Of a stretch of 64,000 nt of DNA, positions 8,865-58,044 are shown one piece after another (position 1 is the stretch's first letter; the number at the start of each line of letters is the position of its first letter). The notes beneath the pieces were generated by a model, which saw nothing but the letters and a program-made list of their open reading frames with translations, was not told the DNA's origin and did not search any database. Made by a program: the position numbers and the translations under genes. The stretch comes from a virus: positions 112,244-176,243 of IMG/VR virus record IMGVR_UViG_3300005613_000005, one strand, 5' to 3'.

Positions 8865-9045
8865 CAGACTGCTTCTTCAACTCTTTTAAAACGTGAGTAT
8901 TGACCATAGTTTGAAGTTTGTTGGTCTTCTTATCTTTACGTATCATTATCATGGTCCTATATTGAAAATAGCATGCTATGCAGAACGTCACGCACGATAT
9001 GAACGACAACACCAGCATCGATATGTGGATCGTGTAAATACTCAT
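8833..9045 (-). CDS. Small membrane protein, leaderless start
   Basis: A 70-residue protein with one N-terminal membrane segment (residues 4-27) and a charged, probably cytoplasmic tail (RKDKKTNKLQ). The start codon is preceded by TGGTATAAT and exactly six bases, so the mRNA should begin at the AUG, with no Shine-Dalgarno. It heads a three-gene overlapping operon. Function unknown. Confidence 0.55.
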   Translation of the reverse strand: MSIYTIHISMLVLSFISCVTFCIACYFQYRTMIMIRKDKKTNKLQTMVNTHVLKELKKQSDDSEDPNINK

Positions 9046-9051
9046 GCTATC

Positions 9052-9060
9052 ATTATACCA
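9052..9060 (-). promoter_or_regulatory. Leaderless-type promoter TGGTATAAT-N6-ATG
   Basis: TGGTATAAT, then GATAGC, then the ATG at 9045. With the usual -10 to +1 spacing, transcription starts on the A of the start codon. Confidence 0.7.
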
Positions 9061-9084
9061 AAGATTTCAAGATATTAAGTATTA

Positions 9085-9268
9085 GAGTCCTATAGTTTTA
9101 AAACCCTTTAATCCGACCTGCAATCAGCTCACAGACCATCGGTCAAGCCAGGATCATCTAATACGGTCGCCAACATCTCCGTCGTGTATCAGACCTTTGC
9201 TTTGGGTTCCCATCGACACGTACCTCGCTGTGACGGTTCGGGTACATAGCTCCCGGGTGCTCAATATA
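9085..9268 (-). ncRNA. Candidate structured noncoding RNA
   Basis: This gap of about 200 bases has no convincing gene, is visibly richer in G and C than its surroundings, and follows a -10 (AGGTATAAT, 9274-9282). On the minus strand helices can be drawn: GTACC/GGTAC, CCGT/ACGG enclosing CGTGT/ACACG, CGACC/GGTCG enclosing CCTG/CAGG, and a GACC-GAT-GGTC hairpin. It is not a tRNA or a known ribozyme by eye. A 29-codon Arg-rich frame exists but does not look like coding sequence. The ends are estimates. Confidence 0.4.
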
Positions 9269-9273
9269 CTTAT

Positions 9274-9282
9274 ATTATACCT
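9274..9282 (-). promoter_or_regulatory. -10 promoter AGGTATAAT before candidate ncRNA
   Basis: AGGTATAAT on the minus strand lies just below the stop at 9286; the next gene start is more than 200 bases away at 9045. That gap is filled by the candidate RNA. Confidence 0.5.
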
Positions 9283-9285
9283 AAT

Positions 9286-9477
9286 TTACTCGTCTGACAA
9301 TAGTTTATCCACTGGATCATCAAGCAAAGACATGATCTTGTTGTATCTTTTGATTTGCTTTTCATTGTCTAGGATAGTATTGATCTGTTTGGCGAGATGT
9401 CTTATATCACTAATGTATTGACCCCATAACTTATCGCCGATATCTTTCCTTAGTATGACGATGTCCTCTGCAATCAC
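9286..9477 (-). CDS. Hypothetical small protein
   Basis: A 63-residue acidic helical protein (MIAEDIVILRKDIGDKLWGQ). The start is a GTG whose codon overlaps the TGA of the upstream gene (GTGTGATT), implying translational coupling. No family is recognised. Confidence 0.5.
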   Translation of the reverse strand: MIAEDIVILRKDIGDKLWGQYISDIRHLAKQINTILDNEKQIKRYNKIMSLLDDPVDKLLSDE

Positions 9478-9748: not shown

Positions 9749-11047
9749 TCATCCTTTTATTACCGCTAATGGCGACAGTTCGATAACTATATCAACCAGA
9801 TCTTTCTGCTCATCCATCACTGTACTTATATCTTTATAAGCACCGCTTGCCTCATCCAGATCTTTGGTTCCCCTGATAGAATGCAATATACCTTGCTCAT
9901 CTAATTTCTTCTGTTCATTTTTAAAATCAAGTTCTCGCTGCGCGCGTTTCCGACTCATCCTGCGTCCAGCTCCATGACTGCAGCTCATGAATGATTGTTC
10001 ACTCCCTTTTCCTTTAACTATGTACGAACACGTACCTTGAGATCCAGGAATGATGCCTAACTCGCCTTCTTTAGCAGACGTAGCACCTTTTCTGTGAACC
10101 CAAACGTTCTTGCCAAAATGATGCTCGATGGACGCGTAGTTATGGTGTATGTTTATGTAATCGGTAAATTCAACGTCTTCATGAACGGGTCTTATACCAG
10201 TCCCGCCGCACGCGTCACACTTGTTACCTCTCTTACCACCGTTTCCACCACAACGTTCGCACGTGTGTTGTACGAACGCCTCCTTGATCCTCTCAATCAT
10301 CAGATCACGATTAGCTTTAGCAAATTCTAAGCAAAACTGCATCTCTCTCAGATAACTCTGACCTTCAGCGGTTTTAATCGGTAGGAAAGCTAGTCCGCCT
10401 TCTCCCTTATATTCTGGTATATTAGAGTACCAAGTCTCGCACAATCCCTGTGCCAGATCGTTGTAGAATTTAGCGACTTTATAACCTAAATTTCTTGATC
10501 CAGAATGAACCATGAACCAAATATAACCATCAGATCCTCTCTGAATCTCTATGAAATGATTACCGCCGCCTAAAGTACCGATCTGCTTCAAAGCACTACT
10601 ATATTCTCCCCATACTACAGGATACGAGTCGTAGGTTATGGCATCCTCGTGGTTAATCTCTGCTACGAGATCGTATTTTGGAGCTGGCATCAACGCCGCG
10701 TCTTGAGATTTAGAATGATGACTGAAACCCAGAGGTATCTTCTTTCTTATCAAGGTCATTATCTCTTTCAACCGTTCCTGCGATATATCCTTTAAATTAG
10801 TCTTGACGGCTGCCATACCACAACCGATATCAACACCAACAGCGTTAGGTATCACCACGTCCTCACAAGCTATAACCCCACCTATTGGCATGCCATATCC
10901 TTGATGGGTGTCCGGCATCAGTGCAACGTGCCTGAACACGAACGGGAGTTTAGCCAAGTCTTTAGCCTGTTCAATAGCTCCTTCCTCAGGGTTCTCGCAC
11001 CAGTTAAAGATAGGGACTCGGGTATTCTCATATTTAACCGCTTTCAT
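9749..11047 (-). CDS. rtcB: RtcB RNA ligase with inserted zinc finger
   Basis: A 432-residue RtcB-family 3'-phosphate/5'-OH RNA ligase. Conserved blocks include GVDIGCGM (Cys76), GGGNHFIEI (His164), HSGSRNLG (His181), HHNYA at 301 and SCSHGAGRRMSR with His358, the residue expected to carry GMP. Residues 263-284 add two CxxCGGxG repeats (Cys263/266/277/280), a DnaJ-type zinc finger not normally present in RtcB. Start and stop overlap the neighbours in one operon. The enzyme probably repairs cleaved tRNAs or other RNA ends during infection. Confidence 0.93.
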   Translation of the reverse strand: MKAVKYENTRVPIFNWCENPEEGAIEQAKDLAKLPFVFRHVALMPDTHQGYGMPIGGVIACEDVVIPNAVGVDIGCGMAAVKTNLKDISQERLKEIMTLIRKKIPLGFSHHSKSQDAALMPAPKYDLVAEINHEDAITYDSYPVVWGEYSSALKQIGTLGGGNHFIEIQRGSDGYIWFMVHSGSRNLGYKVAKFYNDLAQGLCETWYSNIPEYKGEGGLAFLPIKTAEGQSYLREMQFCLEFAKANRDLMIERIKEAFVQHTCERCGGNGGKRGNKCDACGGTGIRPVHEDVEFTDYINIHHNYASIEHHFGKNVWVHRKGATSAKEGELGIIPGSQGTCSYIVKGKGSEQSFMSCSHGAGRRMSRKRAQRELDFKNEQKKLDEQGILHSIRGTKDLDEASGAYKDISTVMDEQKDLVDIVIELSPLAVIKG

Positions 11048-11349: not shown

Positions 11350-11534
11350 TTGATCGCGTCCGTCTTGTTTTTAATCTTTACGTTCCAAACATTACCCATG
11401 CAACATTTCTCGATTATATGACGATATACTTTCTCCTGATGCTACAGCATGTCTCTGCAACGTTTCTCAGCGATGTTCTTACCACCAAAGAAGCCACCGA
11501 TCGTTAGAACAACTATTATTATAAATTCAAACAT
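11325..11534 (-). CDS. Small membrane protein interrupted by one in-frame TAG
   Basis: A strong ribosome site (TTAGGAG, seven bases before ATG) starts a frame that encodes a membrane segment (FEFIIIVVLTIGGFFGG) and a basic stretch, reaching TAG at codon 31 (11442-11444). The same frame then stays open for 38 codons of protein-like sequence (HQEKVYRHIIEKCC...NVWNVKIKNKTDAIKCMK) to a TGA that overlaps the next gene. With the CUA tRNA at 50.1 kb this could be read as a 69-residue protein. The alternatives are a 30-residue peptide with a TAG stop, or a nonsense mutation. Function unknown. Confidence 0.5.
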
Positions 11535-11690: not shown

Positions 11691-11954
11691 TCATGCCTCT
11701 GGCGTGCGCTTTATCAACTCATGAAATAGCGCCATCAAGAAAATCTTGTCCATGCATTCAGTATCCACTTTGAATTGACCGTCGCTTTTATCTGTGTAGA
11801 ACGTTACTTCGCCAAAACCTATGCCTTTAGCACTCCACCGTATAACGAAACCGCTGAATCTTTCGTTTATAAAAGGTTCAACTTCAAGGTGAGTAAACTC
11901 ATATCCTGTAGCAGGACGCTCACCAAATACTTTTTCAAATATATCTTTTGCCAT
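11691..11954 (-). CDS. Hypothetical protein
   Basis: An 87-residue protein with a beta-rich middle (FSGFVIRWSAKGIGFGEVTF) and a helical end. No clear ribosome site precedes its ATG; a TATAAT lies about 25 bases upstream. It resembles in size and layout the small proteins at 30.1 and 47.5-48.5 kb, but I cannot show homology. Confidence 0.5.
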   Translation of the reverse strand: MAKDIFEKVFGERPATGYEFTHLEVEPFINERFSGFVIRWSAKGIGFGEVTFYTDKSDGQFKVDTECMDKIFLMALFHELIKRTPEA

Positions 11955-11989
11955 GATGATATTCTACTGTTTTGAGATATTATATAGAT

Positions 11990-12844
11990 CTATTGGTCGA
12001 ATATTATGTAATCAGCTATAGCACCATAAGTAGGATGCAAGATCGTAAAATTTGCTGACCGATTACACGTAGCCTGTACTATGGTCGCTATTTTTTTGTC
12101 AGGAGATCGATTGTTCAGACGCGCCGTTAATCCCAGTTTATATTCGGCATGAAAGTTACCGACTATGATAAAAAACTTATTTCGACTGATATCTATTAAA
12201 GAATGATAGGCCATCGTATCGTCCCACACTGAATGCGCCGCAAAAAAATTCTTTGTCGCACCGTCAAGCATATCGTGCTTCATGTATTTCATGGTACTTT
12301 TGAAGCGCTTGTAGTACAAGTCACCACCGACACTAAAGTCTTCTGGCAATAATTTCTTTTCCTGCTCGCTCAACGTGCATAAACCCTGCATGGCAATCTT
12401 ATGCACTAACGCGTTGGGAGCATTGATGCCATACACGCGTCCACCAGAAGTTACCGCAATCTCTATCAGCGGTTCATAATACGCGAACGACGTTTTTCCC
12501 CATTGCATCGCTTTTAAAAAATCCGCCTCGTTCTTACCACCGTTCAAAAATAAATCTAAAGTTCCTTGATCTATCCAGGATACGAATTCTAGGCCGACGT
12601 CGATCGATCCATGTTTGGCTACTTCGCTGATTACATCCAGTTGATTTTTGTGATGGACAGCGCTGTCATGCTTCTCACCAAAAACTATGATATCATAGTT
12701 TAACAGGTCCTTTACGAGAGTCTGTCTATCAATAAATTCACCACGATCTGTCGAGAAAATATTACGCATGCTATTACGATCCGCCTCAGTAATCAAACAT
12801 AAAAGCATCACTAAAATAGAATATCGCAAGATGCTTACCCACAT
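11990..12844 (-). CDS. ChaN-like (Tiki superfamily) secreted protein
   Basis: A 284-residue protein with an N-terminal hydrophobic segment (VSILRYSILVMLLCLITEA), so probably exported or membrane-tethered. The mature part matches the ChaN/haem-binding-uptake pattern: YDIIVFGEKHDSAVHHKNQLD, GLEFVSWIDQGTLDLFL, then W..T.FAYYEP and GINAPN. Bacterial ChaN is a haem-binding lipoprotein; a phage copy is unusual. It ends in TAG. The start lies six bases after a TATAAT, a leaderless arrangement, and the gene follows the capsid terminator. Family call is good, role unknown. Confidence 0.7.
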   Translation of the reverse strand: MWVSILRYSILVMLLCLITEADRNSMRNIFSTDRGEFIDRQTLVKDLLNYDIIVFGEKHDSAVHHKNQLDVISEVAKHGSIDVGLEFVSWIDQGTLDLFLNGGKNEADFLKAMQWGKTSFAYYEPLIEIAVTSGGRVYGINAPNALVHKIAMQGLCTLSEQEKKLLPEDFSVGGDLYYKRFKSTMKYMKHDMLDGATKNFFAAHSVWDDTMAYHSLIDISRNKFFIIVGNFHAEYKLGLTARLNNRSPDKKIATIVQATCNRSANFTILHPTYGAIADYIIFDQ

Positions 12845-12850
12845 TAATAT

Positions 12851-12856
12851 ATTATA
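12851..12856 (-). promoter_or_regulatory. Leaderless-type promoter TATAAT-N6-ATG
   Basis: TATAAT, ATATTA, then the ATG at 12844. It lies directly below the T-tract of the capsid terminator, and no ribosome site is present. Confidence 0.6.
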
Positions 12857-16495: not shown

Positions 16496-17464
16496 CTATA
16501 TTAACTCGAAAATTTTAGCGAACGGAAAGGATTTATTGCAGTGACGACACTTGACCTGATTGCTCATGTATACCTGTTCTTTACCACAACTAGGACATGT
16601 TATATACTTGAAATCGTCTTCTAACGCTTCACGTTGGAGTACCGTACCGCCAGTACGATTGGTGGGTGCACTAACTCCGCCATAACCAGCGCATAATGCT
16701 TTAACTAATTTATTGATTTTATTTATATTTTTATCAATCTTATGTTCTAGTGCTTTCTCAACGATATCTTTAGGATCAATGTTTGGAAAGCATTTTTCGA
16801 TGCCAAGATCGTTTACTATCTTTTGAATTTTTTCGACGTTGGTTTTTATCTTGTTCGCACTCGCGTTCCTCGTTATGTGTCGAAACGACGGTACATCTGT
16901 CTTTGCCAAGTGCATCACCGATCGTATGAGTTCCATGTCAGCTTTCTCTTGATCCGGATTAGCATTTTTTTGCAGGTTGATAGGCTCTGCTAAGGTCGCC
17001 TGGTTGGCCGGCGTAAAAGTAAGCGCGACAGAATGGATCTTGGTTCGAGCCAGTAATGAAGGATCTTTGATACCGCGCTGTATAACTCCCCCTTCAACTG
17101 AAGTTTTTAACTTAAGTGGAGAATCTTCCTTATGAATGTTCCTTAATATAGCAGCGGCGGCTTTCGCGTTCTGATGATCATCGTTGTATAAATATCCCTT
17201 ACAATAGATATAAGGTGTCTTAACTTTCTCCCAATAATACCTATGCCTATCATTCTCGCAATCTTCTTCCTTAAATATCTTCTTAGCTTCTGTTATACGA
17301 CCTATAGAATTAAAAAATCCTTTACCATGGTTATCATTCCAACGACCTTTTCCAACTTCTAATTCACTTATATCGGCACCTTCGATCGACAGCATCTCGC
17401 CTTGCGAATCTCTCAATTGTGAGCCCGCTATACAGTCCAACCACATTTTATCATTTTTAGGCAT
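16496..17464 (-). CDS. Capsid maturation protease with C-terminal zinc ribbon
   Basis: About 322 residues from MPKNDKMWLDC. I chose the ATG at 17464 because TTAGGAG precedes it, and the upstream in-frame ATG lies almost on the -10. The core resembles phage prohead proteases (LKLKTSVEGGVIQRG; KIHSVALTFTPANQATLAEP). The end carries AGYGGVSAPTNRTGGTVLQ, shared with the capsid N-terminus, then a zinc ribbon CPSCG...CRHC. It probably cleaves scaffold and capsid during head maturation. The stop is TAG and it meets the HNH gene head to head. Confidence 0.65.
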   Translation of the reverse strand: MPKNDKMWLDCIAGSQLRDSQGEMLSIEGADISELEVGKGRWNDNHGKGFFNSIGRITEAKKIFKEEDCENDRHRYYWEKVKTPYIYCKGYLYNDDHQNAKAAAAILRNIHKEDSPLKLKTSVEGGVIQRGIKDPSLLARTKIHSVALTFTPANQATLAEPINLQKNANPDQEKADMELIRSVMHLAKTDVPSFRHITRNASANKIKTNVEKIQKIVNDLGIEKCFPNIDPKDIVEKALEHKIDKNINKINKLVKALCAGYGGVSAPTNRTGGTVLQREALEDDFKYITCPSCGKEQVYMSNQVKCRHCNKSFPFAKIFELI

Positions 17465-17483
17465 AATAAGACTCCTAAAAGTC

Positions 17484-17492
17484 ATTATACCA
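17484..17492 (-). promoter_or_regulatory. Extended -10 promoter TGGTATAAT
   Basis: An exact TGGTATAAT 20 bases before the protease ATG; the short leader keeps TTAGGAG as ribosome site. Confidence 0.7.
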
Positions 17493-17547: not shown

Positions 17548-17907
17548 CTAACTATCTAATATAGAAGATCCTTTATGCCCATCGATAAGTTCACGAAATA
17601 CGTCAGTGTTACGGATCTTTTCAATGGCATTTTTTTCAATTTTGCGCACCGTATCCATCGATATGTTCATGAAATGAGCTATCTCCATCTCAGATGGTGC
17701 TTTATCAGGAAGAAAGTCTTGTAAATACTTAAAAAAACAATAGTTAGCAAGCTGATGGTTGATGGCCCACGGACATCCCGGAAGCTTTGCCTCATCTTCT
17801 TCTGAAAGTTCTTCACTCGCATTTCTAAGAGCTTTTAATCTGAGTACAGCAAGTGGACAAAAACAATCTGGTAACTCGCACAACTTCCTAGGGCATCGAG
17901 GATCCAT
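17548..17907 (-). CDS. Sigma-70 region-4-like HTH protein
   Basis: A 119-residue protein. The first 40 residues are Cys-rich (CPRKLCELPDCFCPLAVL). CPWAINHQLANYCFFKYL follows, then a helix-turn-helix (APSEMEIAHFMNISMDTVRKIEKNAIEKIRN) of the sigma region-4 type, which in complete sigma factors binds the -35 box. No region 2 is present. It may direct late transcription of the head genes, by analogy to T4 gp55-type factors. The stop is TAG; read-through would add 12 residues. Confidence 0.65.
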   Translation of the reverse strand: MDPRCPRKLCELPDCFCPLAVLRLKALRNASEELSEEDEAKLPGCPWAINHQLANYCFFKYLQDFLPDKAPSEMEIAHFMNISMDTVRKIEKNAIEKIRNTDVFRELIDGHKGSSILDS

Positions 17908-23324: not shown

Positions 23325-23355
23325 ACTTCCTGCCTTTTTATATTATATACTATCA

Positions 23356-23364
23356 ATTATACCA
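23356..23364 (-). promoter_or_regulatory. Extended -10 promoter TGGTATAAT
   Basis: An exact TGGTATAAT between terL and the portal gene gives the portal gene its own start with a leader of about 25 bases containing AGGAAG. Confidence 0.65.
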
Positions 23365-33164: not shown

Positions 33165-33200
33165 TTAACAGGCATAGTAATTACTACCGCAATACGGCAT
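33165..33200 (-). CDS. Possible 11-codon leader peptide upstream of SSB
   Basis: TGGTATAAT, six bases, then ATG begins a reading frame MPYCGSNYYAC ending in TAA 18 bases before the SSB start codon. It lies where a leader peptide would, but the frame is too short to prove coding. Confidence 0.3.
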   Translation of the reverse strand: MPYCGSNYYAC

Positions 33201-33206
33201 AACTCT

Positions 33207-33215
33207 ATTATACCA
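33207..33215 (-). promoter_or_regulatory. Extended -10 promoter TGGTATAAT for SSB operon
   Basis: An exact TGGTATAAT followed by AGAGTT and ATG (33200), the leaderless geometry. It would drive SSB, the UvsY-like gene and recA. Confidence 0.7.
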
Positions 33216-39112: not shown

Positions 39113-39832
39113 TTACTCCTTATATTTTAATATATACCCTTTAGTATGAGTATTTTGACCATTTAAAACTTTTCGCATATTAGACGGTTGTAATCCTAAT
39201 TGTTTTGCACATTTTGTTTTATTAATCCATGTTCCTACATATTTTTTATCAATTGTATATACGTCAAAAGGTTTAGAACCGCGCTTCATCGCAGCAATTT
39301 TACGTTTATTGTCATCCGCCCAATATTTTCTTTGATACTTTGATATTTTACCATTGCGAACCGGATTTGTCATAGCTCGTCTATGATTAGTCCTCATTTT
39401 TAGTTTATCAATTGGTGACATATTAGCAAAACTTTGTTTAACTCGTTGTGCATTAATCTCTCGATTTTTAGGATCTTTATTGAATTCTTTTAATGTTTTA
39501 GAAATTTTAGCTCTCGTTTCTGCCCCAATAAACCAACCTGGCGTTCCTTCTCCACCATCAGTCATATTATATCCATTAGGATATTTCGTGTTATATAGTT
39601 TAATATAGTACGATTCTAATTTCATCGCTTCTTCAGCAGTTTTTATATTCGTATGTAAAATTTTCCACTCTGCTATCAATTGATTTTTTCTTAATTCTTC
39701 ATGAAATATAAATTTTGTTCTTTGAGTTCGAGCATCGTTAATATACTGCTTTTGTCTAACTTTAAAAGATTGGCCCGTAACACCAATATATGCTTTATTG
39801 GCAATAATAGCACAATATATAACAAATTTCAC
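39113..39832 (-). CDS. GIY-YIG homing endonuclease, leaderless GTG start
   Basis: A 239-residue protein. The GIY-YIG core is VIYCAIIANKAYIGVTG at 4-20, with Glu in KLESYYIKLYN and NMTDGGEG. NUMOD3 (GAETRAKISKTLKE) and NUMOD1 (DKKYVGTWINKTKCAKQLGL) DNA-binding modules follow. The start is a GTG six bases after a TATAAT, with no ribosome site. It sits between two genes, in AT-rich DNA, as a free-standing homing gene. Confidence 0.9.
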   Translation of the reverse strand: MKFVIYCAIIANKAYIGVTGQSFKVRQKQYINDARTQRTKFIFHEELRKNQLIAEWKILHTNIKTAEEAMKLESYYIKLYNTKYPNGYNMTDGGEGTPGWFIGAETRAKISKTLKEFNKDPKNREINAQRVKQSFANMSPIDKLKMRTNHRRAMTNPVRNGKISKYQRKYWADDNKRKIAAMKRGSKPFDVYTIDKKYVGTWINKTKCAKQLGLQPSNMRKVLNGQNTHTKGYILKYKE

Positions 39833-39838
39833 ACTAAT

Positions 39839-39844
39839 ATTATA
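39839..39844 (-). promoter_or_regulatory. Leaderless-type promoter TATAAT-N6-GTG
   Basis: TATAAT, ATTAGT, then GTG at 39832. Six-base spacing places +1 on the start codon of the GIY-YIG gene. Confidence 0.65.
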
Positions 39845-39877: not shown

Positions 39878-40198
39878 CTATTTTTTATCTGGTTGGCGTG
39901 AGAATAACTTAAGATATTCTTCCTCTTCTCGTTTTCCAAGTGACCACTGACCATTCTTTGCTATCTTTAACTTTGATTGCCATTGACCCGCATCCTTTAT
40001 CTTAGCGGCTTTTAGATCGGCTTTGATGTTAGGATCCTGATTCTGTTTTTGCTCAGCAACCTTGATGGGATTCTTGATGGAAGGTGGTTTTATCCCAGGC
40101 ATCTTAGGAACTGAAGGAATACGAGGAGCCTTGATTGCGTTTTTAAACTGTGTAAGTATTTTAACTAATTGATCTAACTTATCGCCGCGTAAACTCAT
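39878..40198 (-). CDS. Hypothetical protein, TAG-TAA tandem stop
   Basis: A 106-residue basic, Pro/Lys-rich protein (IKAPRIPSVPKMPGIKPPSI) with no known domain. It starts six bases after a TATAAT (leaderless type) and ends TAG followed at once by TAA, a backup stop that would matter if UAG is suppressed. Confidence 0.5.
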   Translation of the reverse strand: MSLRGDKLDQLVKILTQFKNAIKAPRIPSVPKMPGIKPPSIKNPIKVAEQKQNQDPNIKADLKAAKIKDAGQWQSKLKIAKNGQWSLGKREEEEYLKLFSRQPDKK

Positions 40199-40204
40199 AG
40201 TCTA

Positions 40205-40213
40205 ATTATATCA
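40205..40213 (-). promoter_or_regulatory. Leaderless-type promoter TGATATAAT-N6-ATG
   Basis: TGATATAAT, TAGACT, ATG at 40198. It overlaps the stop codon of the SbcC-like gene. Confidence 0.65.
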
Positions 40214-41939
40214 CATCAGAGACTATAACCGATATACCTTTTTTCTTCTCTACCCGTATTATCTGAGTAAACATGGCTTTTGCTTCCGAAGCATGGTCGA
40301 TAACCCAAATCTGATGTTTTACAGCTAGTTTTTCAAGTAGTCCAATAACCGTCTCTCTACCGGACACGTCCAATCCTTCAAACGGCTCATCAAGAATTAT
40401 AGGGTTGAGCGTCATACCAAACTGCTTTCCCAATATATCGATAATCGCGAAATCTATAGCTAGGGATAGTGCTCTATACTCACCACCCGACAGACTACCG
40501 ATCGAACATTTATGGTCGTTGTTTATAAAAGTCTCTGAAAATTTTGCGACGACATCACCCTTCTTATTTTCCTTATAAGATTTAAGTTGATAACTGGCGT
40601 TAGGCCATATCAACATCACATATTCAGATACCATATCGTTGAACGACTCGACCGTCGAATCTAAGATATAAGCTGGTGCTCCCGTTGGTGCATATATGGT
40701 CGCTACGGCTTGTAAAATTTCAACTTGTTCTTTTTTCTGTTGAATCTGTAATAAAAAGCGATTTTTGAAACCAGACAATTCTTTAATCTTATTTTGAATT
40801 TCATCAGCACGTTTAACATCTGCTTCCCACATTTTGTAATTATTGTCTATAACTTTATTATGTGACGATAATTCCTGTATTCTCATTTGAGCATCATTAT
40901 AATCATAAGATTCTTGAGCTTTCTTTTCTTTTATCTGTTGCATCAAAGAGCGAACTTGCTGTTCTTTCTCAAGTTTTTTATCTAGTTCTTTGATTTCTTT
41001 ACCAATCGCCATCATCGTGTCTTTTATCTTATGTTGATTTTCTTTGTGTTTCTTTTTAGCTTCTTCATTGTCCAACGGTGCTCCACAGTTAAAACAATTC
41101 TCAGCTCCGTCAAATGACTTTATCTGATCGTTGAACCGTTTAAATTCATGATACCGTTGATCCCGCAATGCTCTGTATCTGATTAATTTATTTAGTTTAT
41201 CTTGAGTTTTTAACTGTAACTCGTCATACCGGCTTAAATCAGGTTTAGGAACTAGTTGGAGTTCTTTAATCTGTCGATTGATCTGCTGCTGTTCGCCGAA
41301 CGAGTTTACCATCTTTTTTTTAAGTGAATCAATATCTGTATACGTAGTTTCATAGACTCCTATCTGCGACTTAACTTTCTCCAGTTCTATAGTAAGATCG
41401 TTAAGTTCGCTCTGCAACCGTTTGATGTGTTGATCCGTCTTTTTCTTGCATGCAGTAAATTCGTTCAAGTTCATCAATTGTAGTAAGAAATCTTTCTTAG
41501 CGGTATCGTTGAGGTCTATGAACTTGTTGCTGGCTCTCTGAACCGTGTACATCGATATCAAGAACTGATCGTACGTTAATCCCAACAAAGATTCCCATTC
41601 TTCTTGGGTGATATCTAAATCCTTACCACTTTTCTTGAACTTAACGTTCTTTGGACGTTCACGAATTACCTCGTATATCCGATTCTTGATCTTGATTTTT
41701 ACGTGTACAAAACCACTCTTTGACTTACGACGCTTTATCTCCGTCGCGCTGATCTTACGCGGTACTTTATCGTACAATCCAAACGCAAGTGCGTTGAAGA
41801 TAGCGGTCTTTCCAGCACCATTGGCCTTGTTATCGTCGAAGTTCCATCCGTCAACTAATACTAAACCACTATTATCAAACTTAAGTTCAGCATCTTTTAT
41901 GCTAAGGATATTGTGAATTTTCAACAATACTATCTGCAT
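40206..41939 (-). CDS. SbcC/gp46-like ATPase subunit
   Basis: A 577-residue SMC-like ATPase. Walker A is NGAGKT at 40-45, followed by long coiled coils with a zinc hook (CFNCGAPL) in the middle, the signature SIGSLSGGEYRAL, and Walker B/D loop PIILDEPFEGLDVSG. It pairs with the SbcD-like nuclease 10 kb downstream. The start is six bases after TACAAT, a leaderless-type start. Confidence 0.92.
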   Translation of the reverse strand: MQIVLLKIHNILSIKDAELKFDNSGLVLVDGWNFDDNKANGAGKTAIFNALAFGLYDKVPRKISATEIKRRKSKSGFVHVKIKIKNRIYEVIRERPKNVKFKKSGKDLDITQEEWESLLGLTYDQFLISMYTVQRASNKFIDLNDTAKKDFLLQLMNLNEFTACKKKTDQHIKRLQSELNDLTIELEKVKSQIGVYETTYTDIDSLKKKMVNSFGEQQQINRQIKELQLVPKPDLSRYDELQLKTQDKLNKLIRYRALRDQRYHEFKRFNDQIKSFDGAENCFNCGAPLDNEEAKKKHKENQHKIKDTMMAIGKEIKELDKKLEKEQQVRSLMQQIKEKKAQESYDYNDAQMRIQELSSHNKVIDNNYKMWEADVKRADEIQNKIKELSGFKNRFLLQIQQKKEQVEILQAVATIYAPTGAPAYILDSTVESFNDMVSEYVMLIWPNASYQLKSYKENKKGDVVAKFSETFINNDHKCSIGSLSGGEYRALSLAIDFAIIDILGKQFGMTLNPIILDEPFEGLDVSGRETVIGLLEKLAVKHQIWVIDHASEAKAMFTQIIRVEKKKGISVIVSDVI

Positions 41940-41945
41940 GATAGT

Positions 41946-41951
41946 ATTGTA
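41946..41951 (-). promoter_or_regulatory. Leaderless-type promoter TACAAT-N6-ATG
   Basis: TACAAT, ACTATC, ATG at 41939. The -10 is one base off consensus, but the six-base spacing is the same. Confidence 0.5.
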
Positions 41952-44107: not shown

Positions 44108-45818
44108 ATCCTCCTGCTCCCATCATGTCCCTAAACGACTTTTCTGCTAGATCAAGTTGATTTTCAAGATCAGAATTACGCGGCACTACTACAAGACCAC
44201 CTAAAGTTATCAGGAGTAAAGCAACTGAAAGAGCATTACCGATAGCGACTCTTGCAACTTTAGCAGGTTCGATGATACCGGCCTCAAAAGGATCAGTAAC
44301 CTTATGTTCACTTGCGTCAAACACTTTCTTGGGTAAACCTTCTTGATTATGCGCGCGCAGCATCTCCCTGATATGATCTATATCGTCGTTGTTTTCTCCA
44401 CAGTTGTTCATGAGTAAATTGAACGGTTCACGTAGAGCGTTGACTATTATATCGTACGACGGTTTCTTATCTTTCAACTCATCGATTATATCAGCCAACT
44501 GTAACGTCACGGTGCAACCACCCGGAATAACTCCTTCGGCAATAGCAGAGCGAACAGATTCAACTGCATCTTCAACACGAGCCATCTTTTCCCTGGTCTC
44601 TAACACGGAAGTAGCACCGACCCATATAGTAGAAACACCGCCTGTTAACTTACTTATAGCGGTGCGTATATGCATCTTGTCTAGATCACTAAAAGCCTGA
44701 TTTAAGATACTTTTAAGCTCAGATATACGATTGTCTACAGCATCAGCATCAGGACAACATTGAATAAACGCTTCATATAAATTAATGGTGGCTTGATCAA
44801 ACTCGCCGAACACGTCGTCGGGGATATCGTCCATGGTAAAAGCAGTAACGCTGACAGGATCCCAGATCTTTCCACCAGTATACGCTGACATGTCTTCTAA
44901 AAACATAGATCTTCCATTAGGTAAACCAGACCTGGGAGTTTTGACCGGAACGACCGTAAGGCCGTTCTTAGTCGTTGTCACCAACTTGTCGATAACTATA
45001 TCAGAGAACTCATGAGCCATTATGATTATCGGTTCACCCGGAATTTCTCTGGCCTGATAGATATCTTGAATTATGCCAGGAACCTTAAGGTCGGTTATCT
45101 TTCCATCGTAGAGAAAAACCACACCTTGATCCATGTAAACCTGTTGATTAGCCCTATCATTGATGAACGCAGGTCCCATGTGTCCTATCTCTTTAAGACC
45201 GCTGGTAACTATATACCCATCTAAAGCTTCAACACGGATCTGATCTCCCTGAGCTTCTTCGATCAAAACCTTACCATCGTCTCCTGCAGCTAGAACTGCT
45301 TCTACAGCGTACCTCGCTATCTCAGTATCACCGTTAGCTGATATAGTAGCAACTTGACGAAGTTGTTCGTCGGTCTCTGCTTTGACTGCGTTATCTTTTA
45401 AATACGGGACGATCACGTCCGTATACAGTTTATTAAGTTCGTTGGCGATTTTCTGCGGGTTATATTTGGGATTCTCAACGACGAACTGTTGCCCATATTT
45501 CGTGATAGCGTCGGCTAAAACTATAGCCGTCGTAGTTCCATCACCCGCATCTTTCGCAGTGTTGATGCATATCTCTTTACAGGCTTCTACTATAGTATTT
45601 GCTCCAGCATCAGCCATTCCTAATTCTTTAGCGACCGTTACGCCATCTTTAGTTACCAATGGAGCCATATTATCACGTTCTATTAAAACTCCGCGACCTC
45701 CAGGACCTAAGGTTCGACCGACTGATGCTGCCATAGTCCCTATACTATCGGCAACTAATTTACTAAGTCGCGCGGTATCAGATATGATATCTTTTGCTTT
45801 TGATTTACTATAAATCAT
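44097..45818 (-). CDS. groEL: GroEL-type chaperonin
   Basis: A 573-residue group I chaperonin. Diagnostic segments include TLGPGGRGVLIERD, KDAGDGTTTAIVLADAI (the ATP-binding DGTTT), VEDAVESVRSAIAEGVIPGG and the apical domain around 190-370. The usual Gly-Gly-Met tail is replaced by FRDMMGAGGFGQ. No GroES is visible nearby, so it either uses the host co-chaperonin or works alone as in some giant phages. AAAAGGAGAAGTA precedes the ATG. Confidence 0.93.
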   Translation of the reverse strand: MIYSKSKAKDIISDTARLSKLVADSIGTMAASVGRTLGPGGRGVLIERDNMAPLVTKDGVTVAKELGMADAGANTIVEACKEICINTAKDAGDGTTTAIVLADAITKYGQQFVVENPKYNPQKIANELNKLYTDVIVPYLKDNAVKAETDEQLRQVATISANGDTEIARYAVEAVLAAGDDGKVLIEEAQGDQIRVEALDGYIVTSGLKEIGHMGPAFINDRANQQVYMDQGVVFLYDGKITDLKVPGIIQDIYQAREIPGEPIIIMAHEFSDIVIDKLVTTTKNGLTVVPVKTPRSGLPNGRSMFLEDMSAYTGGKIWDPVSVTAFTMDDIPDDVFGEFDQATINLYEAFIQCCPDADAVDNRISELKSILNQAFSDLDKMHIRTAISKLTGGVSTIWVGATSVLETREKMARVEDAVESVRSAIAEGVIPGGCTVTLQLADIIDELKDKKPSYDIIVNALREPFNLLMNNCGENNDDIDHIREMLRAHNQEGLPKKVFDASEHKVTDPFEAGIIEPAKVARVAIGNALSVALLLITLGGLVVVPRNSDLENQLDLAEKSFRDMMGAGGFGQ

Positions 45819-50095: not shown

Positions 50096-50173
50096 TGGTG
50101 CCCCGGGAGGGATTTGAACCCTCAACAACGCTGTTTTAGAGACAGCTGCTCTGGCCAATTGAGCTACCGGGAC
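50096..50173 (-). tRNA. Suppressor tRNA, anticodon CUA (reads UAG)
   Basis: The minus strand folds into a full cloverleaf: acceptor GTCCCGG/CCGGGGC (7 pairs, one G-T), D stem GCTC/GAGC, anticodon stem GCTGT/ACAGC with loop CTCTAAA (positions 32-38, so 34-36 = CTA), T stem GAGGG/CCCTC with loop TTCAAAT, discriminator A and an encoded CCA. CUA pairs with UAG. The anticodon arm resembles tRNA-Trp changed by one base, but the amino acid cannot be read from the sequence. Variable loop is 6 nt. Confidence 0.93.
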
Positions 50174-51262: not shown

Positions 51263-51296
51263 TTTAAGGTGGTTTAAATTTCTACGTCATATTTAG

Positions 51297-51305
51297 ATTA
51301 TACCT
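51297..51305 (-). promoter_or_regulatory. Promoter AGGTATAAT above the hairpin leader
   Basis: AGGTATAAT, CTAAAT, ATG (51290), then ACG TAG: a leaderless two-codon frame followed by the sequestering hairpin. Confidence 0.55.
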
Positions 51306-51874
51306 TATTTTTCAGTAAAACAATTCTTTTTTAAATTATCTGCGGCCCATAACGGCTGTAAATTACTATAATGACAGGCTTTCTTAAATTCAATAGGATC
51401 CGATAGATTAAATTGACTAAGAGGAATAATATGGTCTATATGCCAGCCGTCACGTGAATGATTATCCCAAGTCATCCCTGGTTGCCATTTGGATTCTATA
51501 TATTTTTTAAATTGTTCTATACTGCAGCCTAGATCTTTAACTGCCGAACCAGTCTTATAATTATTTATTAATGCTTGCTGTAATCGACTACGCAGATTAA
51601 CTTTAATTTTATATAGTATATCGGTATCATATTGTTTCTTACTTAATTTTCGCTTATATTCGCGTCTATATTCTTTATTGTTTTTTGTCCATTGTTTATG
51701 GTTTTTATAGGCAATATCTTTGTTGTTTTGATACCATTCAGCCATTTTTAGCTTTTCATACTGTTTATTATTTGAATACCAATGATCTTTGCAGCATTTT
51801 TTGGAACAATATTTAGCTTTAGAACTTTTGTATATAAAATTAGTATTACAATGTAAACACTGTTTAATCTTCAT
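51305..51874 (-). CDS. HNH homing endonuclease (subfamily A)
   Basis: About 189 residues from MKIKQCLHCNTNFIY; a start nine codons earlier is also possible. It has two zinc ribbons, the shared GSAVKDLGCSIEQFKKYIES segment, WHIDHIIPLSQFNLSDP and CHYSNLQPLWAADNL. It overlaps the last codons of the amidase gene, so it is a free-standing insertion behind it. It belongs with the genes at 0.5 and 46 kb. Confidence 0.9.
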   Translation of the reverse strand: MKIKQCLHCNTNFIYKSSKAKYCSKKCCKDHWYSNNKQYEKLKMAEWYQNNKDIAYKNHKQWTKNNKEYRREYKRKLSKKQYDTDILYKIKVNLRSRLQQALINNYKTGSAVKDLGCSIEQFKKYIESKWQPGMTWDNHSRDGWHIDHIIPLSQFNLSDPIEFKKACHYSNLQPLWAADNLKKNCFTEK

Positions 51875-52355
51875 CGTCGCCGGAAAACACTTGATTTTCA
51901 ATATCTATTAGACTTATTTCGATTTCATCGTCTGATGGACCATCAGGCAAATATTCTTCGGTTCGCAGTGATTTTCGTAACTCTGCCATATCAAGATTCG
52001 GACATGTTTTTCCTGAATATAGTTCATAATGGCCTACAACATCATCGACTGAAAGATCATAGTTTTTCATAAGTCCACGTAAGATACGATCTAGAGTTTT
52101 CTTCTGTTCCTCGGTTATCTCATCGATACCTACCCATACTATGCCCACAGAATCACGGTTATGACCTTTTACATGGGCACCGATCTGAGATTCGGGACGA
52201 CCTTGTTCACACTTGCCATCGCGACGGATAACCCAATGATAACCTACGTCGTTAAAGCCTCGCTGCTTATGCCATTCGCGTATTTCTTTTACACCGATAT
52301 CCATAGTATCAGGACTAGCTGAGCAATGAACAACAATTTTCTTGATCTTTCTCAT
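51864..52355 (-). CDS. N-acetylmuramoyl-L-alanine amidase (T7-lysozyme-like endolysin)
   Basis: A 163-residue Amidase_2 enzyme. Zinc ligands fit VVHCSAS (His10), GHYELYSGKTCPN (His and Cys); other family blocks are YHWVIRRDGKCEQGR and HVKGHNRDSVGIVWVG. It cleaves the sugar-peptide bond of peptidoglycan for lysis. There is no signal peptide, so a holin or other export is needed. The acidic tail from 145 on is extra. The start lies six bases after TGGTATAAT, a leaderless start. Confidence 0.92.
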   Translation of the reverse strand: MRKIKKIVVHCSASPDTMDIGVKEIREWHKQRGFNDVGYHWVIRRDGKCEQGRPESQIGAHVKGHNRDSVGIVWVGIDEITEEQKKTLDRILRGLMKNYDLSVDDVVGHYELYSGKTCPNLDMAELRKSLRTEEYLPDGPSDDEIEISLIDIENQVFSGDDED

Positions 52356-52361
52356 GATTCT

Positions 52362-52370
52362 ATTATACCA
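52362..52370 (-). promoter_or_regulatory. Leaderless-type promoter TGGTATAAT-N6-ATG
   Basis: TGGTATAAT, AGAATC, ATG at 52355. This is a perfect extended -10 with six-base spacing in front of the endolysin gene. Confidence 0.75.
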
Positions 52371-53039: not shown

Positions 53040-54425
53040 CTATATCTCCTTTATCTTATCAGTGATCTCTCTATAATATCTCAACCTTTGGTCAGCATGT
53101 CTCGACAGCATGTCAGATCCCGTAGGACGATAGTCCAGAATGATGCAGTGAGTTTTATCGCCTTCTTTTCTGAGTCCTCTGCCGATGCACTGTAAAACTG
53201 GCCCCTTACCTGCTACAAAATTAGCGAGTATCAATACTTCAACGGGTTTAGTATTTACGCCCTCACCTATCTTGCCATCAGTACCTACTAGACCCATGAT
53301 CTTCTTGGCGTTGAAATCGTCTACGTAGCCCTGAGACTTCTTATCTTTGCCCGTCGCAAAAGGAATGCCGAGGACGCGTGAAAGCTCACGACCGTGAGCA
53401 ACCTCGTCAACCAGGCACAGTACTCGTTTGCCGTTGGCCATAAATTTCTGCATATCGCTCTGTATCTGATTCTTCATGGCGTCGCAGTTTAGAACATGGG
53501 ACTTGTAGTTCTTGAGTTTATCATGCTTGTACTGCTTACAATGCCTAGTGTCTACATTTCTCATGAAAAACACAGGTTGAGCCAACCACCCGTTCTTTAC
53601 TCCCCAGATGACGTCCCTCTTAATCAGTATCTCACCGCAGCCCGCCGTCAACATGATATCTTTACCGTCTGACCTAAACGCGGTAGCCGTTAGACCGTAC
53701 ACCCTACCTACTTCTCCTAGCTGTTTCGCGATACTGTAAAAAGTATCGGCGCTTATGTGATGTCCTTCATCGAATATAACCAATCCCAAGCCCTGTTCCT
53801 TGAATTTGTCGGCATGATTGTTGACGGACTGGGCTATACCAACAGTTATGCTTCTTATTTTTTGCTTACCGTTACCGAAATAACCTATCTTGTTGCCGCC
53901 GAACGCCAAACACAGATCTTCGTAGAACTGATCCGCTATGTTCGTGCTGGGAACTACGATCAGCGTTTTCTTTCTAAACTCTCGTATAGCATGAACGGCC
54001 AGGAGAGTTTTTCCGAGAGCGGTGGCGAAATTGATTATGCCGCGGTGGTTCTCCTTCATTAATATAAGGGCTTCGTTTTGATAATCGCGAAGGTCAAATG
54101 GCTTGTTGATCCACGGTAGAGGTATGTCGTCTCCGGTGTCTGCTCGCCGATCTTCGATATCGACGTTCATGTTTTTTATCAAAGTCGCAAAGCCAGATGC
54201 TAGAGCCAGGTGTCCATCTTTGAGTTTGTACAGTAGTGATTTATGCAGTTCTTGCCTTAACTCTTGATACAGTACTGACCTTTTGAACCAAGATTTATCT
54301 TTGTTTTTTCTTAAGCGATATTCGATCGACTTATCTTTAAAGGTTAATAGTTTATTCAAGCGTTTTTCTACGTCGACCGTAGGATCTTTCAAGACTATTA
54401 CAGAATTTGTAATTATCGCTTTCAT
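53040..54425 (-). CDS. UvsW-like DEAD/DEAH helicase, TAG stop
   Basis: A 461-residue SF2 helicase from MKAIITNSVIVLKDP; I reject a start 17 codons upstream because it would cross the promoter. The motifs are NFATALGKTLLAVHAIREFR (Walker A), VIFDEGHHISADTFY (DEGH box), GLTATAFRSDGKD, and the C-terminal QCIGRGLRKEGDKTH. UvsW-type enzymes unwind branched intermediates and R-loops. The start lies six bases after TATAAT. Confidence 0.85.
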   Translation of the reverse strand: MKAIITNSVIVLKDPTVDVEKRLNKLLTFKDKSIEYRLRKNKDKSWFKRSVLYQELRQELHKSLLYKLKDGHLALASGFATLIKNMNVDIEDRRADTGDDIPLPWINKPFDLRDYQNEALILMKENHRGIINFATALGKTLLAVHAIREFRKKTLIVVPSTNIADQFYEDLCLAFGGNKIGYFGNGKQKIRSITVGIAQSVNNHADKFKEQGLGLVIFDEGHHISADTFYSIAKQLGEVGRVYGLTATAFRSDGKDIMLTAGCGEILIKRDVIWGVKNGWLAQPVFFMRNVDTRHCKQYKHDKLKNYKSHVLNCDAMKNQIQSDMQKFMANGKRVLCLVDEVAHGRELSRVLGIPFATGKDKKSQGYVDDFNAKKIMGLVGTDGKIGEGVNTKPVEVLILANFVAGKGPVLQCIGRGLRKEGDKTHCIILDYRPTGSDMLSRHADQRLRYYREITDKIKEI

Positions 54426-54431
54426 GTATGT

Positions 54432-54437
54432 ATTATA
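54432..54437 (-). promoter_or_regulatory. Leaderless-type promoter TATAAT-N6-ATG
   Basis: TATAAT, ACATAC, ATG at 54425. It lies in the 113-base divergent gap that separates the leftward and rightward gene sets. Confidence 0.65.
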
Positions 54438-55254: not shown

Positions 55255-56263
55255 TCCTAGAGAAGTAGACGCCATCTTGAAACAGGGTGGTTACGGCACA
55301 CAGTCTGAGATAGACGAGATGGATATTTCTTTGGACGAGCTCGACAAGTTCGGCGATAGAAATAGTCTCAGCGAGATATACACGGACATATCAAAGTACA
55401 ACCAGATGCTGAAAGAACGGATAACGTTCTGCAACGATGATCTTACAGAAGCTATCCCCTTTACACGAGAAAACCTGTATTTGATATGTGCATATTCTGG
55501 GAACGGGAAATCAACGATAGCGGCAAATGTCTCGTTTCCGCTGTGGAAACAAGGTAAAAAAACGTTGGTTATAGCGAACGAAGAACCAAAACAAGACATC
55601 TTGTTTAGGATAGGGTGTCTAGAACTTGGACTCAACTTTAACGACTATAAAAAAGGAAGAATGCCCGCTGAACAGCAAGTAAAAGTAGCCCAACTGTTCC
55701 CTGAGATATCGCGACATGTTAAGATATTGGACGTCAACTACAAGAGTGGTCTGACTACTAAGGTAGAAGGTGTTAAGAACGCTCTCAAGGCAGTTCAAAG
55801 TGCTGACTATTCTTGCGCGATGATTGACTACTATCAGTTGGTCAAATATTCTGTCGAACGTCCCAACGCCAAAACGTACGACGTCCTGAACGATCTTAGG
55901 ATATGGCTGGGACGATATATCAAGAATTCTAAGGTACCAATAGTAATATTCGCACAACTGCACTCCTTAGGTAAGAGAAACAACAAAGATTTAGACAGTC
56001 GCATCAAAGACGGACCGACCATATATGAGACCGCGACCGTGGTCATAGAAGTTATTCCAAATTTTGATGATAGAACGAGTGATTTTCTTATCCATAAAGA
56101 TCGCTTTGGACTCAGTGGAACCAGGATAAGTTGTGGTTTTCAAAATGGTCGATACATAAAATTAACTGATGAGTTTAAACAGAAGATAACTGATCGCAAG
56201 TTAGATAAGATAGTTAAAGACAGTGAAAAACATCAATCAGAGGTCAACGATGATAAGTACTAA
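55241..56263 (+). CDS. DnaB/gp41-like replicative helicase
   Basis: A 340-residue RecA-fold helicase from MAKIDPREVDAIL; GGAGG stands eight bases before ATG 55241. Walker A is AYSGNGKST, Walker B lies in CAMIDYYQLV, and the downstream segments VPIVIFAQLH and GPTIYETATVVI match DnaB. It is shorter than DnaB or gp41 and lacks a clear N-terminal primase-binding domain. It overlaps the primase gene and drives the fork with it. Confidence 0.85.
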   Translation: MAKIDPREVDAILKQGGYGTQSEIDEMDISLDELDKFGDRNSLSEIYTDISKYNQMLKERITFCNDDLTEAIPFTRENLYLICAYSGNGKSTIAANVSFPLWKQGKKTLVIANEEPKQDILFRIGCLELGLNFNDYKKGRMPAEQQVKVAQLFPEISRHVKILDVNYKSGLTTKVEGVKNALKAVQSADYSCAMIDYYQLVKYSVERPNAKTYDVLNDLRIWLGRYIKNSKVPIVIFAQLHSLGKRNNKDLDSRIKDGPTIYETATVVIEVIPNFDDRTSDFLIHKDRFGLSGTRISCGFQNGRYIKLTDEFKQKITDRKLDKIVKDSEKHQSEVNDDKY

Positions 56264-57122
56264 AAAATGCTTGATTTGTAAGGACGGTCGTAAGAATAAT
56301 TGCTTACATTGGCATCGCGATCCAGATACTGGTGATATATGGGTATATTGCGTGGGAAAATGTCAGAGAGGATATTCTCTGAGGTCATATTGTCATGAGG
56401 CAGGGATCTCGCTACCTGAATTTCTTAAGGGAGATTTCGATTTCATAGAAGCTCGTCCCAACGAAGTCAACGAGATGGATTTTCCACATTGGTTCGTCAC
56501 GCTTTCTGATCCTCGTGCTGCTAAAGGTGTTGAGTACATCAAATCGCGCGGGCTAACGTTAGACGGTGACATGTACTATGATACTGATCAAGAAGGGATA
56601 GTATTTCCTTATTATTTTCACAACACGTTCTGCGGTGCGCAGGTGCGTTTCATAGAGCCAAGGATCACCGAAGACGGCGATGAATGGAAGATAACGACCA
56701 TGTCGGGAACACGTATCGGACTACTCTTTTATGGGTGGAATCAAGGTAAATTTGTTACTAATATTCAAGGAATTATTGTGACAGAAGGAGCATTTAATGC
56801 CATTGCCATACAACAATCATTAAATCAATTATATGGAGGTATCAGCAAAAATCCTTGGAGAGTTGTGGCATGTTCAGGTTCTGGTGCAACTAAGCATCAC
56901 GTAGAAACTATAAAAGAATTAAAAGATTCTAATATTAAAGTAATCTTGGCTTTTGACTCAGATGAAGCAGGCTTAAAAGGTTTTAAAAAATTTGTTAAAG
57001 GACAAGCGATAACACACTATATTTTTACTGAAAACGCTAACAAAGATTGGAATGATATGTTGAAAGAATTAGGTCATAAAAAATTTGCACAATATTTTAT
57101 AAATAAGATTAAAAAAATATAA
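56250..57122 (+). CDS. DnaG-type primase
   Basis: A 290-residue primase from MISTKKCLICKDGRKNNCLH; AGAGGTCAACG precedes ATG 56250. A CHC2-type zinc finger occupies residues about 7-40, and the TOPRIM domain has IIVTEGAFNAIAIQ and ILAFDSDEAGLKG. It makes RNA primers at the fork. The last third is much more AT-rich than the first, up to the HNH gene that follows. Confidence 0.88.
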   Translation: MISTKKCLICKDGRKNNCLHWHRDPDTGDIWVYCVGKCQRGYSLRSYCHEAGISLPEFLKGDFDFIEARPNEVNEMDFPHWFVTLSDPRAAKGVEYIKSRGLTLDGDMYYDTDQEGIVFPYYFHNTFCGAQVRFIEPRITEDGDEWKITTMSGTRIGLLFYGWNQGKFVTNIQGIIVTEGAFNAIAIQQSLNQLYGGISKNPWRVVACSGSGATKHHVETIKELKDSNIKVILAFDSDEAGLKGFKKFVKGQAITHYIFTENANKDWNDMLKELGHKKFAQYFINKIKKI

Positions 57123-57141
57123 AACCTAATTTAATTCCTAG

Positions 57142-57147
57142 TATAAT
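57142..57147 (+). promoter_or_regulatory. Leaderless-type promoter TATAAT-N6-ATG (plus strand)
   Basis: TATAAT, AATACA, ATG at 57154. The same geometry is used on the opposite strand. Confidence 0.65.
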
Positions 57148-57153
57148 AATACA

Positions 57154-58044
57154 ATGACACACACACAAAAAATGAAAACCAAATATCCTAAACTTACAAA
57201 CGTTGATTTTTCTAATTTTATAATTAAAAACGATAATCAAAAATATTATTCAACAAAATGTCTTAAATGTAGTGCAGATAGAGGATATCAACGTCCTAGA
57301 TTTGCTAATAGATTGTGTAATGAATGCAGCAAACAACAACAAATTATTCGACATATTAAACATAACAATGTTAACATAAATGATTTTATAATTAAAATGC
57401 AAGGAAAAAATAAGAGGCCACAACGGTTTTATAGATCCTCATGTCACGGTTGCGGTAAAGATAGGGGATATATTGAACCTAAAAATTTTAATAAAAAATG
57501 CCTATCATGTATAAAAACGAAACATTCTATGCAGTTACAAAATGTCAACTATGAATCAAAAACTAAAGAAAAATATAAAGTTGCGAAATATGAAATATTT
57601 TGCCCTAAATGCGGTATCAGTAAAGGAATACTTCCTATTACATATCATAATAGATTATGTAAGCAGTGTAGTAATAATGTAATTCGTATAAAAAAAACTA
57701 AAAATACGCCAACTCAACGAAGATTAAAATCTAGATTTTCAGCACGAATTAATGATCGATTAATGAAAAACACCGGCTGTGGAAATTATATATTTAAAGA
57801 AGTAGGATATACTTTTCAAGAGCTTAAACAACACATTGAATCATTATGGGAACCATGGATGAATTGGAATAATTGGGGCAGATATGATCCTAATAATAGA
57901 ACATGGCAAATAGACCATATAATTCCTGATAGTAGTTTTACTTATACATCATACAAAGATTTAGATTTTAAAAAAAGTTGGGCTCTTAAAAATTTACAAC
58001 CATTAGAAGCTTATAAAAATCTTCAAAAAGGCAACAAGATATGA
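57154..58044 (+). CDS. HNH homing endonuclease (subfamily B)
   Basis: A 296-residue protein with several tandem zinc ribbons (CLKCSADRGYQ, CHGCGKDRGYI, CPKCGISKGI) and the C-terminal nuclease part VGYTFQELKQHIESLWE, WQIDHIIPDSSFTY and LKNLQPLEAYKNL, shared with the gene at 19.8-20.3 kb. It lies behind the primase, a classic place for homing genes, and overlaps the next gene (ATGA). Confidence 0.9.
   Translation: MTHTQKMKTKYPKLTNVDFSNFIIKNDNQKYYSTKCLKCSADRGYQRPRFANRLCNECSKQQQIIRHIKHNNVNINDFIIKMQGKNKRPQRFYRSSCHGCGKDRGYIEPKNFNKKCLSCIKTKHSMQLQNVNYESKTKEKYKVAKYEIFCPKCGISKGILPITYHNRLCKQCSNNVIRIKKTKNTPTQRRLKSRFSARINDRLMKNTGCGNYIFKEVGYTFQELKQHIESLWEPWMNWNNWGRYDPNNRTWQIDHIIPDSSFTYTSYKDLDFKKSWALKNLQPLEAYKNLQKGNKI

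Follow-up and report, generated by a model that had tools for sequence, protein, structure and literature searches.

Start sites in the window

The window analysed here is a 64,000-nucleotide (nt) stretch, bases 112,244-176,243 of IMG/VR record IMGVR_UViG_3300005613_000005 (176,243 bases), from a virus whose terminase, portal, DnaE-type polymerase and SPO1-like capsid protein identify it as a tailed phage. Several of its genes are preceded by a -10 hexamer that stands six bases before the start codon (TATAAT-N6-ATG and close variants; Table 1). An earlier note on this stretch had listed ten such sites as starts of leaderless messenger RNAs (mRNAs), and at all ten the hexamer does lie exactly six bases before the named codon. 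Nine of the hexamers are TATAAT and one is TACAAT (41939); nine of the codons are ATG and one is GTG (39832). Eight of the ten sites open an open reading frame (ORF) of at least 70 amino acids (aa), the weakest of the eight being 9045 and 40198.

Table 1 Promoter-start modules and two related features of the window, in window coordinates (N6, six bases; SD, Shine-Dalgarno sequence)
Feature	Position	Strand	Context
499-aa protein with sigma-70 region-2 domain	1991..3490	-	Domain at residues 417-465; 26.7 bits, cut-off 24
TATAAT-N6-ATG	9043..9057	-	Before 70-aa ORF 8833-9045; doubtful gene start; coding score -3.1
Variant TAGAAT-N6-ATG	11952..11966	-	Before 87-aa ORF 11691-11954; start 11954
TAGTATAAT-N6-ATG	12842..12856	-	Before ChaN-like gene 11990-12844 (PF04187, 144 bits)
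Contrast promoter TGGTATAAT	23325..23361	-	Inferred +1 at 23349; leader and SD before portal gene 21414-23324
TGGTATAAT-N6-ATG	33198..33212	-	11-codon ORF, no gene start; SD-led gene 32140-33147 starts 53 nt on
TAGTATAAT-N6-GTG	39830..39844	-	Before GIY-YIG endonuclease gene 39113-39832
TGATATAAT-N6-ATG	40196..40210	-	Before 106-aa ORF 39878-40198; hexamer overlaps preceding gene's stop codon
TACAAT-N6-ATG	41937..41951	-	Before SbcC-like gene 40206-41939
AGGTATAAT-N6-ATG	51288..51302	-	2-codon ORF, no gene start; SD-led start 79 nt on
TGGTATAAT-N6-ATG	52353..52367	-	Before amidase gene 51864-52355
CTGTATAAT-N6-ATG	54423..54437	-	Before helicase gene 53040-54425
TAGTATAAT-N6-ATG	57142..57156	+	Before 296-aa Cys-rich protein 57154-58044, HNH-like by eye

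The spacing is far from random. The window holds 11 copies of TATAAT-N6-ATG; 500 dinucleotide shuffles gave 1.73 on average and never more than 6, and TATAAT-ATG at other spacings in the window averages 1.97. As the pattern had been chosen on the window itself, a fair test needs the remaining 112,243 bases of the record, which the earlier note had not seen. There we found 16 copies, with an average of 3.4 and at most 8 at other spacings (Poisson p 7e-7), and for GTATAAT-N6-ATG 12 against 0.93 (p 4e-10). The whole record holds 27 copies, compared with one for a backwards control (the same pattern read in reverse), 7 at N7 and a mean of about 5 at other spacings, which places a -10-like box about 12 bp before the start codon, as in leaderless genes. 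The claim that this spacing exceeds expectation, in the window and genome-wide, is thereby borne out.

Among 20 hexamers of the same base composition, a large excess was seen for TATAAT alone (21.8; next 3.7). When all hexamers at spacings of 0-20 before ATG were ranked, the leading words were, in order, GTATAA at 7, AAGGAG at 5, GGAGGA at 3, AGGAGA at 4 and TATAAT at 6; GTATAA at 7 is the same module as TATAAT at 6, so two start signals stand out, the SD and the -10 box. The looser box TANNNT gave no N6 peak, and GTG and TTG showed no clear enrichment at N6 in the window or the record.

The two signals are nearly exclusive. Counting four or more SD bases as an SD start, 199 of the 265 starts examined carry one (one called gene, too close to the record end, was omitted), and a separate count gave 203 of 267 genes. 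TANAAT-N6 lies upstream of 15 of the 66 SD-poor starts (no SD or a three-base SD) and 2 of the 199 SD starts (Fisher p 2e-8). The N6 starts thus lack an SD, and their leader is too short to hold one. This contrast was repeated in six long relative records (166-177 kb), with SD-less against SD starts of 14/69 and 3/170 in G009, 11/99 and 2/152 in G010, 13/106 and 2/156 in G004, 8/73 and 1/173 in G001, 3/45 and 0/200 in G012, and 6/55 and 0/157 in G011. The phage relies mainly on SD sequences and the N6 genes are a minority of its called genes; the wider proposal of SD-independent initiation, perhaps tuned to 70S initiation during infection, is not supported.

Starts were taken from a home-made gene caller (266 genes in the record) that rewards an SD and gives no reward for TATAAT. 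It placed the start of the ChaN-like gene 75 nt downstream of 12844 and that of the 9045 ORF 99 nt downstream, which illustrates how SD-rewarding gene finders can misplace leaderless starts. The module of the ChaN-like gene sits right behind a hairpin and T run that, as read from the sequence, resemble a terminator, downstream of the capsid gene. Family matches of the amidase and of the SbcC-like protein set in at residue 1 or 2, in agreement with their N6 starts, though this is no proof of them. The helicase frame at 54425 also holds a GTG 51 bases upstream, and the Cys-rich protein had no match in PHROGs or Pfam. Three further TATAAT-N6-ATG sites in the window, at 11406 (-), 25884 (+) and 49739 (-), open 4, 44 and 7 codons and look like chance matches.

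Relatives, leader length and a shared promoter

Scanning IMG/VR with the capsid protein gave 99 relatives, and 80 were retained as loci; a scan with the SbcC-like protein found none. Three further capsid-protein relatives were found in bacterial bins, all Bacteroidota, a phylum of which SD use would be atypical. In the 80 loci, duplicates kept, TATAAT-N6-ATG occurs 103 times, and other spacings from 0 to 25 give 15-40 occurrences, except 19 (65) and 22 (48). Restricting all 83 loci to plausible starts (ATGs of ORFs of at least 80 aa near an upstream in-frame stop, duplicates removed) left 53 at N6, 13 at N7, 7 at N8, 4 at N9 and 9 at N10, only 9 at N11-N16 together, and 71 at N17-N24, 60 of these with an SD inside the leader. 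The near-empty interval suggests that leaders of about 5-10 nt are avoided, a terminal AUG needing a shorter leader and an SD a longer one.

Across 15 relative records (G008 repeats G006) we counted 126 copies of the pattern and 37 of its backwards control, with at least one match in 14 of the 15. Five of the six long records show a clear spacing peak for GTATAAT, and TATAAT alone gives a modest peak in G001 (17 against up to 10 at other spacings). The three Bacteroidota bins show little sign of the pattern in their own genes, apart from a slight excess in one or two of them: G016 (4.0 Mb) had 38 matches, 13 on a 147-kb phage contig, with a backwards control of 15 overall; G017 had 60 against 61, at least 17 among the matches listed being on contig C10, taken from its contig number to be a 73-kb phage contig; and G018, with 86 against 61, may carry a mild excess.

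Aligning 62 N6 and 119 SD-led (N17-N30) promoters from the 83 loci and this record on the hexamer showed that both classes share one promoter, TRGTATAAT without a -35 box. G occupies position -13 in 87% of N6 and 80% of SD-led promoters, and in neither class were TTGACA-like matches better than in random sequence. The form TGGTATAAT was found 20 times in the record against 3.0 expected. In the SD-led set the base at N6+1 is A in 60% of promoters and the preceding base T or C in 69%. As these sites are free of start-codon constraint, the enriched A would place +1 on the A of the leaderless ATG, and we regard this signal as the best stand-in for a 5' end that sequence alone can offer.

Some genes occur in both forms. 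For a thymidylate kinase of the relatives, 13 of 34 distinct upstream regions (4 duplicates dropped) have TATAAT-N6-ATG without an SD, and the six spacer bases vary among most of the 13; of the other 21 regions, 14 have an SD and 7 do not. Its start fits that of Escherichia coli thymidylate kinase, whose chain residue 2 aligns with query residue 3; a search of the window record for this kinase gave no match. For the portal gene, 10 of 50 upstream regions (11 duplicates and 1 without a start dropped) are exact N6 and 3 are one base off. Nine of these ten were scored as having an SD, but the AAGG sits in or before the promoter, upstream of +1. The portal gene thus has the leaderless form in several relatives and, in the window phage, a leader and SD behind the same promoter. 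Homologues of gene 16496-17485 (58 rows; 14 duplicates and 2 without a start dropped) include 6 exact N6 and 5 one-off cases. The capsid gene, which mostly lies behind another gene, has N6 in 0 of 63 upstream regions and an SD in 62 (17 duplicates dropped).

In many relatives an N6 gene, often endonuclease-like, begins about 75-125 nt behind the capsid gene; in the window phage that slot holds the ChaN-like gene, after the terminator-like hairpin. Ten endonuclease-looking N6 proteins (nine from relatives, one from this record), picked by eye and so giving no rate, all match at least one endonuclease family in PHROGs. Loci L010 (8450-9598, +; by eye only) and L016 (6004-7089, +) encode leaderless endonuclease-like proteins in which the nuclease part is followed by a weak P-loop ATPase/kinase-like match.

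Probable leaderless starts and alternative readings

Messages of the N6 genes most likely begin at the start codon without a ribosome-binding site, and it is highly probable, on the evidence above, that this mainly SD-using phage has genuine leaderless genes. At TRGTATAAT, RNA polymerase would take roughly the seventh base past the hexamer as +1. Where that base is the A of the start codon, as in a minority of genes, the mRNA would begin 5'-AUG, and ribosomes would start on that terminal AUG. In the remaining genes behind this promoter, the start codon would lie at least 11 bases after +1 and an SD would fit in the leader; intermediate distances are avoided. Since some of the leaderless starts belong to free-standing endonuclease genes, the 15-bp module might allow expression independent of a gene's surroundings, and would suit genes that move between sites. 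The leaderless proposal of the earlier note finds good support in the spacing, the near-exclusion of SDs, the orthologues and the +1 signal, and fails at 33200 and 51290, where the genes have ordinary leaders.

Several points weigh against this interpretation. Two of the ten listed sites and the three unlisted ones are not gene starts. Gene starts depend on the home-made caller, and related loci share kinship, so counts across them are not independent. Matches are few in four relatives (G012, 3; G013, 3; G014, 0; G015, 1); G012, one of the six long records, has no spacing peak, and G011 has only a weak one for TATAAT alone (9, with up to 8 at other spacings). Outside the family, no N6 peak was found in 50-kb stretches of T4, SPO1, phage OC and phiYS40 (3, 2, 0 and 1 matches).

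The alternative that survives best is that polymerase starts a few bases off the A, so that leaders of about 0-4 nt share one route of initiation and +1 on the A is merely the commonest case. The relatives' N7 to N10 counts do exceed the N11-N16 level, and in several orthologues of gene 16496-17485 ten bases separate the box from the start. We nevertheless think it improbable, given the sharp N6 maximum in the relatives and the fall in the record from 27 at N6 to 7 at N7.

A second alternative, ordinary promoters whose real start codons lie downstream behind SD sites, does describe 33200 and 51290, and at 12844 and 9045 the caller favoured downstream starts. As a general account it is very improbable: the amidase and SbcC-like family matches run from the first residues, the relatives' thymidylate kinases start at the same place as solved ones, and both the N6 peak and the SD exclusion would be left unexplained. 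Chance in an A+T-rich genome, to which the post hoc choice of the pattern and the three to five window matches that look random or open no gene might point, is a negligible explanation beside the out-of-sample excess, the singular behaviour of TATAAT among 20 hexamers and the recurrence in relatives.

If leaderless, these genes would place a widespread uncultivated phage family among the few phages with many such genes. The family also offers a natural contrast in which one promoter serves two modes of translation, separated by a leader length that is avoided; with portal and thymidylate kinase orthologues in both forms, the effect of leader loss is testable gene by gene.

A candidate sigma factor, other genes and known systems

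The 499-aa protein of Table 1 might be the reader of the TRGTATAAT promoter. Each of the 14 relative records searched has a match to it. This match extends through the domain in seven records (the fused form); four have the domain in a separate ORF, and in the remaining three (G002, G013 and G014) the domain was not found. A tblastn search with the domain alone confirmed four of the seven fused and all four separate cases, and the Pfam region-2 model matched G000, G001, G005, G011 and G012 among 11 virus records searched. One separate form, of 123 aa, is 47% identical to the window domain and matches solved sigma factors (4.5e-15; FliA 4.8e-14) only over residues 15-103, which leaves no room for region 4. 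G001, G011 and G012 have an additional, strongly matching sigma-like ORF of 231-236 aa. Separate sigma ORFs in loci L122 (479-847), L123 (517-918) and L125 (316-792) have GTATAAT promoters upstream, that of L125 as TATAAT-N6-ATG. In the window a 119-aa protein (17548-17907, -) gave a sigma region-4-like match below the threshold (22.9 bits against a cut-off of 24.1); the match is weak in 6 of 12 records searched, above the cut-off in none, and may reflect any helix-turn-helix.

On this basis the leaderless and short-leader genes could form one regulon of a phage sigma factor with region 2 only, which in the window phage and several relatives would be fused to the C terminus of a larger capsid-side protein. 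Such a factor would suit promoters without a -35 box, as with T4 gp55. We hold this proposal to be tentative and on balance unlikely. The N6 signal appears stronger in the fused set (pattern/backwards counts of 8/0 in G003, 11/0 in G004, 6/2 in G005, 8/2 in G006, 13/4 in G007, 17/1 in G009 and 14/2 in G010) than in the separate set (17/10 in G001, 9/3 in G011, 3/6 in G012 and 1/0 in G015), but kinship alone may explain the difference. Counting against a phage factor, records with separate sigma domains have no stronger N6 signal, the fused domains are more divergent, and TRGTATAAT could serve a host sigma-70 as an extended -10 promoter. Were the regulon real, phage transcription would have a second solution of the gp55 kind, with promoter and start codon merged in a portable 15-bp module carried by homing-endonuclease-like genes among others.

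Other features of the window include a transfer RNA (tRNA) gene (50096-50173, -) whose CTA anticodon would read the amber codon (ARAGORN label tRNA-Pyl); TAG is nonetheless the stop of 38 of the 266 called genes. Residues 295-484 of the terminase large subunit (23374-26493, -) resemble a LAGLIDADG endonuclease and may be an intein. The phage also carries a GroEL-like chaperonin (44097-45818, -), an RtcB RNA ligase (9749-11047, -) and a second RNA ligase (27967-29064, -). A phage ribosomal protein S21 was considered as a translation switch and rejected, with no match in 11 virus records and its sole match in bacterial bin G016.

T4 is the nearest comparison for the candidate factor. Its late promoters are TATAAATA without a -35 box, its late mRNAs have leaders, and its gp55 system includes a sliding-clamp-binding C terminus and the partner gp33. 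The similarity of gp55 to sigma is confined to domain 2, as stated in an excerpt of PMC2988020. With its candidate sigma region-2 domain, here part of the 499-aa protein, and its promoters without a -35 box, the window phage may resemble T4; it differs in the TRGTATAAT promoter and in a FliA-like domain that some records fuse to a larger protein; the T4-type late box is not enriched in the record (15 found, 20.7 expected).

For leaderless starts, the single-gene precedent is lambda cI, the repressor gene of a temperate phage, whose mRNA starts at the AUG; here a class of genes is concerned. Leaderless mRNAs generally tolerate kasugamycin and are disfavoured by IF3. Lambda provided the first example of leaderless mRNA, according to part of PMC3160421, which also describes bacterial TA-led genes, leaderless and lacking an SD, in which a TATAAT-like signal precedes the start by about 12 bp. 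The position of the box and the lack of an SD are alike, in a class of bacterial genomes there and a phage family here. An excerpt of PMC12340547 reports that in Deinococcus-Thermus a -10 box directly before the start codon yields leaderless mRNA, alongside SD genes, and that in D. radiodurans a looser TANNNT box precedes almost one third of ORFs. The adjoining box and the coexisting SD genes are shared; unlike those bacteria, the phage family needs the full TATAAT and a preceding G. Promoters of leaderless phage genes can also carry the extended -10 (TGnTA) motif found with leaderless bacterial mRNAs (PMC4842269, in excerpt), and phage transcripts are often leaderless according to a passage of the AR9 paper (PMC5312081).

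The closest parallel is the Thermus phage phiYS40, also large and also with leaderless mRNAs as a class, which in the window phage are predicted from sequence. Leaderless middle and late transcripts of phiYS40 were reportedly described by Sevostyanova et al. in 2007. Most of its middle and late mRNAs are leaderless, and host IF2 rises and host IF3 falls on infection, as given in an excerpt of PMC3594737. In phiYS40 the 5' ends and the IF2 and IF3 changes have been studied and its 50-kb stretch lacks the TATAAT-N6-ATG peak, whereas in the window phage the predicted leaderless starts are a minority. Our literature search turned up no paper dealing with leaderless genes of these phages. The kind of gene start is already known; what is added is the phage family, the strict spacing and the two-mode distribution of leader lengths.

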